From NCBI GenBank assembly GCA_019240525.1, contig JAFAYE010000001.1, positions 1,585,300-1,649,299 on the forward strand: a stretch of 64,000 nt of DNA, in the 5' to 3' direction. Each line of letters begins with the position of its first letter. Position 1 is the first letter of the stretch. Origin of the DNA: Candidatus Eremiobacterota bacterium. Its GTDB lineage: Bacteria > Vulcanimicrobiota > Vulcanimicrobiia > Vulcanimicrobiales > Vulcanimicrobiaceae. Of the stretch, positions 647 through 43,950 are shown in pieces. A program made the position numbers and the translations under genes. The notes below the pieces were generated by a model. It ran no database searches. It was not told the origin of the DNA and worked only from the letters and a program-made list of their open reading frames with translations.

Positions 647-1429
647 TTACGTACGCACCGAATTTCGACTCGCTTCGTAGAGCGCAATCGAGCCGGCGAC
701 GGCGGCGCTCAGGCTCTCCGCGCGCCCGGGCATCGCGATGGCGAGCACTCGTTCGCATAGGTCTCCCCACTCACCCAAACCGCGCCGTTCGTTGCCGACA
801 ACGAGAGCGACCGGCCCCTGCCAGGTCTCTTCCCTCAGGTCGGGTCCGCCGGCGGCCAAGCCGACCATCCGCACCTTTGCAAGGCTCGCGCCGTGCCGCG
901 CCTCGGTGGCGTCGGCGACGCTCACGGCCAGCCGGAAGAGCGCCCCCATCGAGCCTCGCACCACCTTTGGGTGGTACGGGTCAACGCCATGCGATCCGAA
1001 GAGGATCCCCGGGGCGCCGAAGGCGTCGGCGGCGCGAAGCAACGTGCCGGCATTTGCGGGGTCGTTCAGGTCGGCGAGCATCAAAATCGGCGTACCAAGC
1101 GTGAAGAGCGCGCCCGGGGGGGTTAACCGAATCGGTCCCACGGCCACGATGCCGGTCGGCGTTGTGACGTCCGATATGGCCGCGAGGGCGCCCTCGTCGG
1201 CGATGAAGAGTGGCGTCCCGTCGTCTTCGAGACGGCGCAGCAGCGGGGTCGACTCGTAGGCGGCCTGCGTCGCGTAGAGCTCGAGAATGGGAAATCCCGC
1301 GGCGGCGGCTTCGCCGAGCAAGGTCGCGCCCTCAAAGCGAAAGCGCCTCTGCTCGCGGCGCCCTTTGACCGAGCGCAACGCCGCGGCGGCCCGCAGGCGC
1401 TGCGCGTGGCGCCCTAGTGGCGCGGCCAC
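647..1429 (-). CDS. TrmH/SpoU-family RNA methyltransferase
   Basis: This is a 260-residue SPOUT-class 2'-O-ribose methyltransferase. After an N-terminal substrate-binding region (LRSVKGRREQRRFRFEG) it carries motif 1 NPANAGTLLRAADAFG, motif 2 VVGNERRGLG and motif 3 MPGRAESLSAAVAGSI. The last forms the trefoil-knot SAM site; the usual SLN reads SLS here. The target is probably 23S rRNA, but RlmB and tRNA TrmH activities cannot be told apart by eye. It lies between rplT and pheS, the common place for this family member. Its start overlaps the end of a small membrane-protein gene by 16 bp, so a start slightly downstream is possible. Confidence 0.88.
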   Translation of the reverse strand: MAAPLGRHAQRLRAAAALRSVKGRREQRRFRFEGATLLGEAAAAGFPILELYATQAAYESTPLLRRLEDDGTPLFIADEGALAAISDVTTPTGIVAVGPIRLTPPGALFTLGTPILMLADLNDPANAGTLLRAADAFGAPGILFGSHGVDPYHPKVVRGSMGALFRLAVSVADATEARHGASLAKVRMVGLAAGGPDLREETWQGPVALVVGNERRGLGEWGDLCERVLAIAMPGRAESLSAAVAGSIALYEASRNSVRT

Positions 1430-1675: not shown

Positions 1676-2230
1676 ATGGACGAATTACCTCGCGTTCAAG
1701 CATCGAGCCGGCATTTCGAAGGGCGCGTTTTTAACGTGCGTACCGACGAGCTTCGCTACGGGGACGGCGCCGTCCATCGAGTCGACGTGGTCGAGCACGG
1801 CACCTCGCTCGCCATTATCGCGACCCCAGCCCCCAACCAACTGGTGCTCGTTCGACAGTACCGTCATCCCGCCGCGGCAATTCTCTGGGAGATTCCGGCC
1901 GGAACGTCAGAGCCCGGCGAGACCCTCTCCGAGGCGGCGGCCCGCGAGCTTCGCGAGGAAACGGGCTATGCCGCTGGGCGCCTTTCGCGGGTCGGTTCGG
2001 CGTGGACCACGCCCGGCTTTTGCTCGGAGATCATGCACTTTTTCCACGCCGACGAACTGGTCGCGGGCGAGCCGGCGTTTGACGATGACGAGCGAATAGA
2101 AGTTGGTATCTTCTCCTATCAGGCGGCATGGCGGTTGGTCGCTGAGCAAGTCGCGGATGCGAAGACCGTCCTAGCCCTGTATTGGCTACAGGCCGGGGAA
2201 GATAAATTCGGAGGCGAGTTTGGTCGATAG
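1676..2230 (+). CDS. NUDIX hydrolase, ADP-ribose pyrophosphatase-like
   Basis: This 184-residue protein carries a complete Nudix box, from G of GTSEPGETLS through RELREETGY, matching GX5EX7REUXEEXGU. The N-terminal half (VFNVRTDELRYGDGAVHRVD, then LVRQYRHPAAAILWEIPAG) resembles the ADP-ribose pyrophosphatase subgroup, where the E-I-P-A-G segment precedes the box. It probably hydrolyses ADP-ribose or a related nucleoside diphosphate derivative with Mg2+ in the cytoplasm. It is divergent from the small membrane protein at 1414-1590 and is followed after 68 bp by a small unknown gene. Confidence 0.87.
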   Translation: MDELPRVQASSRHFEGRVFNVRTDELRYGDGAVHRVDVVEHGTSLAIIATPAPNQLVLVRQYRHPAAAILWEIPAGTSEPGETLSEAAARELREETGYAAGRLSRVGSAWTTPGFCSEIMHFFHADELVAGEPAFDDDERIEVGIFSYQAAWRLVAEQVADAKTVLALYWLQAGEDKFGGEFGR

Positions 2231-2298
2231 TTACAGTAAGGAACGCCCGCACCGTCGCACCGTTGCTACGACGTGGCGGACTCGTTTTGGAGGTATGC

Positions 2299-2571
2299 AT
2301 GGAAATACCTAGCGACATTGACGCCGTCCTCAAACGATTGTTGGAGCCCAATCGGGACGGGGAGCTATCCGCATTAGCACCCGAAGATGAAACCTATTTG
2401 AATTCGCTGATCGCGTCGGTCCGCAATGGTCGCCGTGCGGTACTCATTGTCGAAGATGCCGACGAGCATCTGCGCTATATGTTCAGCAATGCCACCCGCG
2501 CTGAGGCCGTGACGATGCTGGGCAAAGTCGTCGAAGCCACTGGACGCCGTCTCGCCGATGGAGACGACTAG
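2299..2571 (+). CDS. Conserved-looking small protein, unknown
   Basis: This 90-residue cytoplasmic protein begins MEIPSDIDAVLKRLLEP. The start is chosen for a GGAGG 5 nt upstream of the ATG. It is acidic, with predicted helices and a central strand (RAVLIVEDADEHLRYMF), and has no signal peptide or membrane segment. No family was recognised. The stop overlaps the convergent serine-hydrolase-like gene by 4 bp. Its only plus-strand neighbour is the upstream NUDIX gene, with which it may be co-transcribed. Confidence 0.55.
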   Translation: MEIPSDIDAVLKRLLEPNRDGELSALAPEDETYLNSLIASVRNGRRAVLIVEDADEHLRYMFSNATRAEAVTMLGKVVEATGRRLADGDD

Positions 2572-3977
2572 CCAACCAAGGTAATACCGTCGATCTTTCC
2601 GCTCGGCGTGACCTCGAAGTCGTAGTGATATTGCGCGCGCGGATAGCGCACCAAAAATTCATACAAGGTATCGCCGTTCGTTTCGGTCGTGCTGGATAAC
2701 GGCACGATGGTTTGGAGACGTCCCAACGACGCGAAGTTCTCGCGCGCGACGAGGTCGTCGGTGAGGATCGCGCTGAACGACGGCGTTAATTCCGCGCGAT
2801 CGATTCGCCGTGCGGCTAAGCGTCCAAGCCATTCTTTCGCGCGAGTTACGACGGCGTTGTCGAGGTGCGCCGTCGTTGCCGGCACGAGAATATCGAGAAC
2901 GCGCGCGGCGACTTCTTCAGGAACCGTTACGCCGCCACGGCTCGAGTCGGCGTTCGAAAAAACGATGACGCCAACGTGTTGTTCGGGTAGCACGGCGTTG
3001 AGCGCCCGATAGCCTGAGATTTGCCCATCCGTCCAGACATACTCTTTACCGCCGCGCCGGTCGATCACCCACCCCATTCCGTATTGCGTGGGACCAACGT
3101 TTGCCGCCGGTGTGAACATCGTCCGCAACGCGTCGACCCGGAGCAACACGGGCATTTCGATGTCCCATTTTGCAAGATCGTCGATGGTCGAAACCAGTCC
3201 CAAGCTGCCATCCAACCATGCGGGATCCCACGCCGGCGCCGCGGCAAAACCTTGCGGCGTTCGCGTGTAACCCGTCGCCCGTGACGCCGCGATGCCGTTA
3301 TCACCGGCGAGAAACGAATGATCCATGACCAACTGAATGAAGATGTTTTGCTCGAGATAGTCGGAGAGCGTTACGCCGCTCGCCCGTTCGACGATAAGTC
3401 CCGCGAGCATATAGTTCAGGGGATTATTGGAGTAGGTTGTGCCGGGAGGCGCCGACGGCTTGAGCTTGTCGACCGCGGCTAAGAGATCGGCAAGCTTGAC
3501 CGTTTTCGTGGGATCGGTCGAAACGCCGGTAACTCCCGCATAGCTGGGCAGTCCGGACGTCTGCGTGAGCAGTTGCGCGATCGTGACGTCATTGCCGAGG
3601 CGAAACTCGGGAACGTATTTGGTCACCGTATCATCGAGCTTCAGCTTGCCCTGCTGCGCGAGCAGCAAGACCGCCGCGGCAGTGAACTGCATCGTTAGGT
3701 CGCCGGCATAAAACTCGGTTTCGGCCGTCATCGGCGCGTGCGGCCAGATATTGGCAAAGCCAAATCCGCGGGCGTAAGCGACGCGGCCATCCTCAACGAT
3801 TCCAATGGCGATACCGGGCGTGCGGCCGCCATGGATCTCGTCGATCGCGATGCGGTCGATGCGGTCGGAAATTGACGGGGTGACCGCCACGACGTTTTGC
3901 GCTCGTGCCGGCGGCTCACCAAGTGCCAAAATGGCGACGATTAGAGCCGTCGCAAAGAGAGCGGCCGCACGCCTCAT
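2568..3977 (-). CDS. Secreted beta-lactamase-fold protein lacking catalytic residues
   Basis: This 469-residue protein has a signal peptide (residues 1-26, ending PARA) and the overall layout of class C beta-lactamase/DD-peptidase-like serine hydrolases. Family landmarks are VAYARGFGFAN, LAQQGKLKLDDTVTKYVPEF, LLTQTSGLPSY and TTYSNNPLNYMLAG. The SxxK motif that normally follows ...F.xG reads DLTM (in YAGDLTMQFTA), losing both Ser and Lys. The late HxG box reads TDG in YVWTDGQISGY. YxN (YSN) is kept. The reading frame is intact, so this looks like a maintained pseudo-enzyme rather than decay. It is inserted between rplT and the SpoU gene. A binding or structural role outside the cytoplasm is inference. 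Confidence 0.82.
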   Translation of the reverse strand: MRRAAALFATALIVAILALGEPPARAQNVVAVTPSISDRIDRIAIDEIHGGRTPGIAIGIVEDGRVAYARGFGFANIWPHAPMTAETEFYAGDLTMQFTAAAVLLLAQQGKLKLDDTVTKYVPEFRLGNDVTIAQLLTQTSGLPSYAGVTGVSTDPTKTVKLADLLAAVDKLKPSAPPGTTYSNNPLNYMLAGLIVERASGVTLSDYLEQNIFIQLVMDHSFLAGDNGIAASRATGYTRTPQGFAAAPAWDPAWLDGSLGLVSTIDDLAKWDIEMPVLLRVDALRTMFTPAANVGPTQYGMGWVIDRRGGKEYVWTDGQISGYRALNAVLPEQHVGVIVFSNADSSRGGVTVPEEVAARVLDILVPATTAHLDNAVVTRAKEWLGRLAARRIDRAELTPSFSAILTDDLVARENFASLGRLQTIVPLSSTTETNGDTLYEFLVRYPRAQYHYDFEVTPSGKIDGITLVG

Positions 3978-3984
3978 GATGTAA

Positions 3985-4003
3985 GGACGATTATATATCG
4001 TCC
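3985..4003 (-). promoter_or_regulatory. Intergenic hairpin between rplT and serine-hydrolase-like gene
   Basis: A perfect 7-bp inverted repeat (GGACGAT and ATCGTCC around a 5-nt A/T loop) fills the 29-bp gap after rplT and ends 7 nt before the next ATG. It has no T-run. It may reduce read-through from the ribosomal operon, mask the downstream start, or act as an operator. Confidence 0.45.
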
Positions 4004-4006
4004 GAG

Positions 4007-4366
4007 CTACTTCTGTGAAGCCGCCTTTGCCAAGTTCAGCAGTTCTCCGAAGGCCTTGCGGTCCGAAACCGCGAGATCCGCCAGGGCCTTGCGGTTGAGC
4101 GCGACGCCCGATTTCTTCAAGCCGTGCATGAAGAGCGAGTAGGAGAGACCCTCCCGCCGCGCCGCGGCGTTGATGCGGCTGATCCAGAGCGAGCGAAAAT
4201 CCCGCTTGCGAACGCGGCGGTCGCGGAAGGCGTAGGCTAACGACTTGAGCAGCGCTTCGTTCGCGACGCGATAGTTGCGCCGGCGTGCGGCGCGGAAGCC
4301 CTTGACGAGCTTCATCACCTTGCGCCGGTGTTTGAGGCCTCCGACACCCCGTTTGATCCGTGCCAT
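4007..4366 (-). CDS. rplT: 50S ribosomal protein L20 (bL20)
   Basis: At 119 residues this is the normal length for bL20. It opens MARIKRGVGGLKHRRKVMKL, with the long basic N-terminal helix followed by the globular domain (FRSLWISRINAAARREGLSYS). L20 binds 23S rRNA early in assembly and in many bacteria also represses its own infC-rpmI-rplT operon through a leader structure. It is the third gene of that operon here, 17 bp after rpmI. Confidence 0.97.
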   Translation of the reverse strand: MARIKRGVGGLKHRRKVMKLVKGFRAARRRNYRVANEALLKSLAYAFRDRRVRKRDFRSLWISRINAAARREGLSYSLFMHGLKKSGVALNRKALADLAVSDRKAFGELLNLAKAASQK

Positions 4367-42937: not shown

Positions 42938-43950
42938 CGCAGTATACGTCGTTTCTGCGCCGCGTCGTCGCGGGCGAGAATCTCACCCAAGACGAGGCCG
43001 CAGCCTTCGTCGGCGAGATCATGGACGCGAACTACACGCCGGCGCAGGCGGCGGGATTACTCGTTGCCCTCGCCGCCAAAGGGGAGAGCATCGATGAAAT
43101 CGTGGGAGCGGCGCGCGCGATGCGCGAGCGCAGCGTTCACGTCGAGCATCGCTTGCCGATGGTGGTCGACGTCGTCGGCACCGGCGGCGATCATGCGAAT
43201 ACGCTCAACATCTCGACGATGGCCGCGCTCGTGGTCGCTGCGTCCGGCATTCCCGTTGCCAAGCACGGAAACCGTGCGGCATCGAGCGCATGCGGCAGTG
43301 CCGACGTGCTGGAAGCGGCCGGATTTCCGCTCGAGATCGCTCCCGAGCGCGCCGCGGCAATGCTTCGGACGTGCCGCTTTACGTTCATGTTCGCACCCTA
43401 CTATCACCCGGCGATGCGCAATGCCGCGGTCATTAGACGCGAACTCGGGGTGCGGACGATTTTCAATCTGCTCGGTCCGCTGACCAACCCCGCGAGCGCC
43501 ACGCATCTCGTGGTCGGCGTAGCCCGCGAGGACCTGGTCGAGACGGTCGGCGAGGCGCTACGGAAATTGGGCGCGCAACGCGGGGCGGTGGTTCACGGAT
43601 GCAGCGGGGTCGACGAAGTCGTGGGCGATGCGCCGACGGTCGTTTACGAGTTCGACGAGGAAGGCGCGCGTCTGCGTCGCTTGCAGCCCTCCGACTTCGG
43701 CATTACTTCGAGCGTGAGCACGCCCACAGGCGGCTCGGTCGCTCGATCGTATGCCGAGTTCACCGACATTCTTACCGGCGCGCCAAGCCCCGCTAGTGAC
43801 GTGGTGGCGCTCAACGCCGCAGTGGTCTTTCATGCCATCGGCGTCGAAGAGGAACTGATGGCAGCGTTTGAACGCGCGCGCTCGCTCTTACAAAGCGGCG
43901 CCGTTTGGCCGGCCTTCGAGCGTGCTCGTGACGTTGCCCGACATGAGTGA
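42934..43950 (+). CDS. trpD: Anthranilate phosphoribosyltransferase
   Basis: This 338-residue protein starts at GTG overlapping the trpG stop (GTGA). Motifs are VVDVVGTGGDHANTLNISTM (PRPP and pyrophosphate binding), KHGNRAASSACGSADVLEA, FMFAPYYHPAMRNAAVIRRE and FNLLGPLTNPA. It joins anthranilate to PRPP. A GTG 15 nt further upstream is a possible alternative start. The next gene is trpF; the trpC that usually stands between them is missing. Confidence 0.95.
   Translation: MTQYTSFLRRVVAGENLTQDEAAAFVGEIMDANYTPAQAAGLLVALAAKGESIDEIVGAARAMRERSVHVEHRLPMVVDVVGTGGDHANTLNISTMAALVVAASGIPVAKHGNRAASSACGSADVLEAAGFPLEIAPERAAAMLRTCRFTFMFAPYYHPAMRNAAVIRRELGVRTIFNLLGPLTNPASATHLVVGVAREDLVETVGEALRKLGAQRGAVVHGCSGVDEVVGDAPTVVYEFDEEGARLRRLQPSDFGITSSVSTPTGGSVARSYAEFTDILTGAPSPASDVVALNAAVVFHAIGVEEELMAAFERARSLLQSGAVWPAFERARDVARHE

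Follow-up and report, generated by a model that had tools for sequence, protein, structure and literature searches.

Gene X, the gene studied here, lies downstream of rplT in the window (the whole stretch of 64,000 nucleotides of DNA that was analysed). Judged by alignment, its product has lost all five catalytic positions of its fold, and it most probably represents an exported pseudoenzyme that is kept for a non-catalytic extracytoplasmic role (partner binding or assembly) older than the catalytic loss. An earlier note on this DNA had proposed that catalysis was lost with selection for a non-enzymatic role, and this reading is now well supported, the site being dead in 30 of 37 orthologues, dN/dS among dead pairs 0.06–0.22 and the drift falling mainly on the catalytic columns. 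The features on which the analysis rests are collected in Table 1.

Table 1. Position of gene X, its parts and its neighbours in the window
Feature	Position	Strand	Basis
Gene X, exported beta-lactamase/PBP-fold pseudoenzyme (putative), 469 aa	2568..3977	-	Pfam, PDB alignment, structure model, model-vs-PDB comparison
Signal peptide-like N-terminus, residues 1–26, ends PARA	3900..3977	-	read from sequence by eye
Beta-lactamase/PBP-type domain, residues 30–366	2880..3890	-	Pfam stretch 47–347; structural matches over 30–367
DLTM, residues 93–96, in place of SxxK	3690..3701	-	alignments; structure model
Tyr182-Ser-Asn184 (YSN), two residues out of YxN register	3426..3434	-	alignments
Asn184-Asn185-Pro186 in place of the catalytic Tyr-x-Asn	3420..3428	-	alignments
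Thr316-Asp-Gly318 in place of His-x-Gly	3024..3032	-	alignments
C-terminal NTF2-like domain, residues 364–469	2571..2888	-	isolated-domain model; best match DUF3887 4hyz_A
Inverted repeat enclosing TATATAAT	3985..4003	-	z -2.3; 4/200 shuffles equally good
TTCACA, -35-like box ahead of TATATAAT	4019-4014	-	consensus match
rplT, upstream neighbour of gene X	4007..4366	-	PF00453
102-aa protein, convergent with gene X (frames overlap by 4 nt), conserved neighbour	2263..2571	+	synteny
NUDIX hydrolase, conserved neighbour	1676..2230	+	PF00293
SpoU/TrmH-type rRNA methylase, conserved neighbour	647..1429	-	PF00588

Fold and domains of the gene X protein

The frame of gene X is intact over 469 codons and opens with an N-terminus of the exported type, both as previously described; similar N-termini, again read by eye, are found in most of the other orthologues whose N-termini were listed. 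The protein is certainly a member of the Pfam Beta-lactamase family (PF00144; E 3.1e-59, 201.2 bits against a cut-off of 27), the match covering profile positions 8–315 of 329. On profile score it is remote from every named class C beta-lactamase, reaching 72.1 bits with the NCBIfam class C model NF033085, for which the cut-off is 415. The solved relatives closest in sequence are 2qmi (a PBP homologue from Pyrococcus abyssi; E 6e-32), 4gdn and 7spn. An AlphaFold2 model computed from the window protein together with 13 relatives (mean pLDDT 74.6, pTM 0.68) has 2qmi_A as its best structural match (Z 36.5, rmsd 2.6 over 319 residues), followed by D-amino acid amidase, the R61 DD-peptidase, LACTB and class C enzymes (Z 32–35). 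The structure prediction and superposition on class C enzymes called for in the earlier note therefore indicate that the PBP/class C fold is kept (Z 32–34.5 for R61, LACTB and the class C enzymes). Folded alone, the part of the protein after residue 364 gave a model with pLDDT 81.6 whose best chain, the DUF3887 protein 4hyz_A (Z 10.6, rmsd 2.3 over 96 residues), places it among NTF2-like domains. Many further NTF2-like chains match at Z 8.3–9.6; Foldseek support for the assignment is moderate (E 0.006), and no Pfam match was found for this domain.

Loss of the catalytic residues

The motifs of the fold are defined as SxxK, [SY]X[NT] and [KH][ST]G in part of a paper on the evolution of metazoan LACTB (PMC2266909). 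In our alignments the Ser and Lys columns of SxxK, the motif of the SxxK serine hydrolases (class C beta-lactamases, PBPs, family VIII esterases), are occupied by Asp93 and Met96 (DLTM), and in the structure model a helix (residues 95–108) begins at this motif. The HxG columns hold Thr316-Asp317-Gly318, with Gly alone retained, so that K/H-x-G is lacking too. Both replacements had been reported before, together with the statement that YxN survives, which turned out to be an error of register. The query stretch (PGTTYSNNPLNY) aligns without gaps with that of active relatives (PGTKFEYNNLNY), and likewise with the stretches of 2qmi, 4gdn and 7spn, and this alignment puts Asn184 in the catalytic Tyr column and Pro186 in the Asn column; the nearby YSN (residues 182–184) is a chance motif two residues upstream of the true columns. 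Because YSN is out of register, five catalytic positions are lost rather than the three counted earlier. The earlier note had also raised the possibility of a displaced SxxK, which was looked for across the whole protein, where there is no S..K and no Cys.

Orthologues and the states of their active sites

Among 99 genomes of the family to which the window belongs, 40 had a match at E ≤ 1e-60. Of these 40, 37 (counting the window) carry X at 47% identity or more, which was taken as orthologous, and the other three (G062, G045 and G085) carry paralogues of 33–35% identity. A scan of named genomes gave 16 related loci, of which 11 belong to Eremiobacterota and five, more remote, to other phyla. 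A phylum-wide search of 149 genomes brought no additional orthologue of this grade, the relatives outside the clade being only 31–38% identical, and orthologues outside the family were accordingly discounted; among relatives in f2 and f3 (32–38% identical), four from f2 and three from f3 (the latter by inspection) keep SxxK.

From these alignments the orthologues could be divided into three groups. The first (L056, L068, L074 and L128) keeps the full site, S..K/Y.N/H.G. The second, half-lost, consists of L131 (A..K/Y.N/H.G), L125 (G..Q/Y.N/H.G) and L069 (G..K/Y.D/H.G), all of which are without the Ser and with the Tyr and His. In the third group, the remaining 30, the site is dead and the replacements are varied: G, Q, D, A, N, E or H stands in place of Ser, and M, R, E, Q, A, V or K in the Lys column. 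DLTM, whose conservation the earlier note had proposed to check by such an alignment, is consequently not a conserved motif, and the replacements at all five catalytic positions vary both between and within lineages. All nine chosen outgroup rows keep S..K/Y.N/H.G. The 37 orthologue rows contain neither frameshifts nor internal stops; contig edges truncate three of them, and an in-frame gap of about 20 residues interrupts one. Apparent broken frames in G077 and G078 were dismissed, the flagged TAA in L058 being the stop codon of rplT, immediately ahead of X, and L067 (G077) having an open frame of 437 aa.

Many enzymes of the beta-lactamase/PBP fold are promiscuous, and several polar residues are invariant in the dead members, so X might still be an enzyme, with its chemistry moved to other residues. 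We regard this as very improbable, as the replacements just described differ between lineages and within them, the query has neither S..K nor Cys, [ST]xxK reaches 10 of the 30 dead rows in no column, and the polar residues that never vary among the dead members are, in many cases, the usual ones in active rows too.

The window genome contains in addition a paralogue (L009; G000:C1:1894219-1895118) that lacks the motifs, with AMAF at SxxK, YSH at YxN and TQTK around HxG. On this evidence it is likely to be a second pseudoenzyme of the beta-lactamase/PBP fold in that genome.

History of the loss

A first tree of 80 rows was made with the query duplicate, own-genome paralogues, L022–L026, second hits and the mis-started L058 excluded. 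The final tree, built without the catalytic columns, contained the 37 orthologues (L058 now included), four f2 rows and five paralogues from the nearest paralogue clade (seven rows) of the first tree; it omits the second X fragment that G008 carries on contig C48. In this tree the 37 orthologues group together as a supported clade, next to the active f2 rows, and intact rows are interleaved with lost ones. The earlier note had held that orthologues retaining SxxK would refute its reading, and four such orthologues do exist, but the tree shows them as sister lineages interleaved with losers, a placement that does not make them evidence of activity in the window protein.

When the Ser-less rows were constrained to a single clade the constraint was rejected (delta lnL 41, p-AU 0.0012; the group tested was named after the first tree had been seen), which argues that the Ser site was probably lost repeatedly within this syntenic clade. 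If loss of Ser is irreversible, the starred branches of the tree force at least three losses (one in L069 and L125, one in L072, L126 and L129, and one in the remainder), and the tree as drawn has six. Because two changes of Ser state suffice under unrestricted parsimony, one loss followed by regain of the complete site in L074/L128, for which gene conversion would be a route, has to be weighed as well; we consider it unlikely.

Constraint on the dead copies

The dN/dS values given above (NG86, a simple method yielding whole-gene averages) come from 12 pairs of dead orthologues; by the same method the intact syntenic pair L074/L128 gave 0.14 and the f2 pair L076/L078 gave 0.27. Over the 66 columns conserved in the 13 SxxK rows, entropy in the 30 dead rows averages 2.07 bits at the five catalytic columns and 0.31 at the other 61. 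Four of the five catalytic columns lie at the 79th–88th percentile of all columns and position 186 at the 51st; column 259 is likewise conserved in active rows and variable in dead rows, and positions 93, 96, 184, 259 and 316 vary more than any other formerly conserved column. By these computations the dead X proteins are still under purifying selection outside the catalytic columns, and X shows two of the marks of a pseudoenzyme, homology to an enzyme family with catalytic residues lost and purifying selection retained after the loss. Since root-to-tip paths are longer in dead rows (mean 0.89 against 0.55 in intact rows), the constraint is partly relaxed or changed as well as persisting.

This faster change in dead rows, and the clean absence of X from several genomes, speak for a gene in decay, useless for catalysis and drifting as a whole towards loss. 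It is the least probable of the explanations considered here, given that the 37 rows are free of frameshifts and internal stops apart from the contig cuts and the single in-frame gap, that the flagged TAA codons precede the start, that dN/dS is as low as stated and that the conserved columns outside the catalytic ones stay fixed. The variable columns bear equally on the idea of a protein that binds a ligand such as muropeptides or D-amino acids in the old pocket, with no turnover. The fold is kept, as are W315, G318, N188 and Y189 beside the motifs, but because positions 93, 96, 184, 259 and 316 are so variable there would be no common pocket chemistry, and we think this reading quite unlikely.

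Seventeen signature columns hold a residue that is present in at least 92% of the 37 orthologues and in at most one of the nine outgroup rows, and each is present in six or seven of the seven intact and half-lost rows. They include K270, P276, D282, D306, D362, D407 and P426, and none is a catalytic motif residue. These residues suggest a role common to intact and dead forms, and because they are clade-specific and common to both, a non-catalytic job would have existed before catalysis was lost.

Gene neighbourhood and the ECF sigma/anti-sigma pair

The genes of the window lie, on the minus strand, in the order infC, rplT, gene X, SpoU/TrmH methylase and pheS, the 102-aa ORF and the NUDIX gene being placed on the opposite strand between gene X and the methylase; the rplT-spoU-pheS neighbourhood noticed earlier is therefore real and is made fuller by infC, the 102-aa ORF and the NUDIX gene. 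The 102-aa protein has no match in Pfam or NCBIfam. The order rplT, X, 102-aa ORF and NUDIX (opposite strand), trmH, pheS is conserved among the orthologues, with the 102-aa ORF directly downstream of X in 34 of the 37 loci; the remaining three (L122, L133 and L135), all with rplT upstream, are cut off by the end of the contig. From about 60 X-less genomes in the family search, 20 were hand-picked for diversity and completeness and fetched, and six of them (L138, L139, L142, L145, L154 and L155) have an empty site, in which rplT is followed by the 102-aa ORF within about 100 nt. Two of the empty-site genomes (G010 and G011) are of the window's own genus, so gene X is dispensable.

A pair of genes for an ECF sigma factor and its anti-sigma factor lies directly upstream of X in 14 of the 37 orthologues and is absent at the locus in 22, the window included (L061 was left unscored). 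The pair was assigned by Pfam/NCBIfam to Sigma70_r2/r4 and zf-HC2, the RskA-like/RskA_N and anti-sigma models staying below their cut-offs. It stands beside three of the four intact X genes, but also beside nine dead ones, and the linkage between X and the pair would be ancestral. RseB regulates RseA extracytoplasmically, and by analogy the dead X fold might sense an envelope ligand or partner and so modulate the anti-sigma factor. Besides the 14 linked loci, such a function would fit the short distance between the anti-sigma stop and the start of X (8–19 nt in the four loci read) and the membrane span and outer domain that the anti-sigma factor has by eye. However, the pair is missing at 22 of the 37 loci, G077 and G084 keep a dead X in genomes where no anti-sigma match reaches E ≤ 0.001, the pair occurs in G027 and G048 where X is absent, and such a pair in the window genome (63% and 47% identical; G000:C1:761002-762197) has no X paralogue adjoining it. 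As X persists without the pair, and in two genomes without any anti-sigma match at that threshold, regulation of this kind was set aside as the main reading and is in our view unlikely.

Away from X, at 761–768 kb of the window genome, two ECF sigma/anti-sigma pairs of this type are found no more than 7 kb apart (L171 2991-4243 and 8627-9782). A gene for a DUF4142-like exported protein is found upstream of the ECF sigma gene (L069 2236-2712, and similarly in L056, L073, L125, L129, L132 and L133), and in L068 directly upstream of X; it is possibly a fourth member of the ancestral cluster.

A putative promoter ahead of gene X

The earlier note had placed gene X behind a hairpin of its own. The inverted repeat does exist, but it is better read as a promoter, because it encloses TATATAAT preceded at 18 nt by TTCACA, the two giving 11 of 12 matches to a sigma-70-like consensus (a consensus match rather than a measured start). 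The -10 box TATATAAT ends 12 nt before the ATG of gene X, so that the transcript would have a very short leader. A terminator scan found no site at the inverted repeat, and a terminator or attenuator was rejected on this ground and because the repeat is not conserved, whereas TATATAAT stands just before X in five near relatives (L070, L075, L116, L117 and L135) that do not keep the long repeat. Five other members of the genus (L118, L120, L121, L123 and L134) have neither. In the window's genus gene X appears, then, to be expressed from its own promoter.

A window-wide scan for -10 boxes before long ORFs gave no clear peak or excess. TATAAT-like boxes lie 7–12 nt before other long ORFs at window positions 42946 (-), 21394 (-), 43399 (+) and 56224 (+), and leaderless starts in the phylum are a possibility.

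Discussion

In the explanation that we prefer, the ancestor of X would have been a secreted serine hydrolase of the DD-peptidase or class C type with an NTF2-like C-terminal domain, a protein that in many relatives is encoded right behind genes for an ECF sigma factor and a zinc-finger anti-sigma factor. A non-catalytic extracytoplasmic job, which we infer to be binding of a partner or assembly, would have been in place before catalysis became dispensable and was lost, the Ser presumably first, and the protein would have been kept for that other job. At this locus the window's genus has no sigma/anti-sigma pair, and X appears to be transcribed from its own promoter. As a first guess, X may act as a scaffold or subunit together with other cell-wall proteins.

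A bolder version, which we hold tentatively and at somewhat less than even confidence, is that the intact ancestor was bifunctional, a hydrolase that also had a second task, either structural or the binding of a partner, tied to an ECF stress-response operon. As the second job would have been the one under selection, several Eremiobacterota lineages might have dropped the chemistry independently, nucleophile first, leaving at one locus a series that runs from intact through Ser-less and dead forms to those that have also lost the sigma pair. If true, this series would be a natural experiment on the passage from enzyme to pseudoenzyme.

Pseudoenzymes are common, and their intermediate states are rarely observed together. 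In the case of X, intact, half-lost and entirely dead versions coexist at the same locus, which makes it possible to test both the sequence in which residues were lost (nucleophile first) and the nature of the non-catalytic job that retains the gene. There is also a caution for annotation, since such genes will be labelled beta-lactamase or serine hydrolase and motif searches can mislead, as with the out-of-register YSN of the window protein. No literature on gene X, or on pseudoenzymes of the PBP/class C fold in Eremiobacterota, was found in a search for which preprints and most subscription journals were out of reach.

Comparison with known systems

With SigK/RskA-like ECF systems the X loci share, in 14 of 37 cases, a position behind genes for an ECF sigma factor and a zf-HC2/RskA-like anti-sigma factor; they differ in that the pair is missing in the window and in 22 of 37 overall, and in that the RskA_N and anti-sigma models score below their cut-offs. 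The Streptomyces R61 DD-peptidase, the class C beta-lactamases and LACTB have the same core fold as X, which differs from them in having lost the catalytic motif residues and in scoring so far below the class C cut-off. The closest single relative, both in sequence and in structure, is 2qmi, the PBP-related serine hydrolase homologue of Pyrococcus abyssi, whose chain of 447 aa likewise has residues beyond the core domain; unlike X it has S-I-T-K opposite D-L-T-M and Y-L-N opposite N-N-P, so that both motifs are lost in X. As described in parts of two papers (PMC3149277, PMC6451368), the iRhom pseudoproteases resemble X in that the fold is kept, the catalytic residues are lost and the gene is conserved. 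They have a different fold, and X differs from what is described there in having intact, half-lost and dead states at one chromosomal position.
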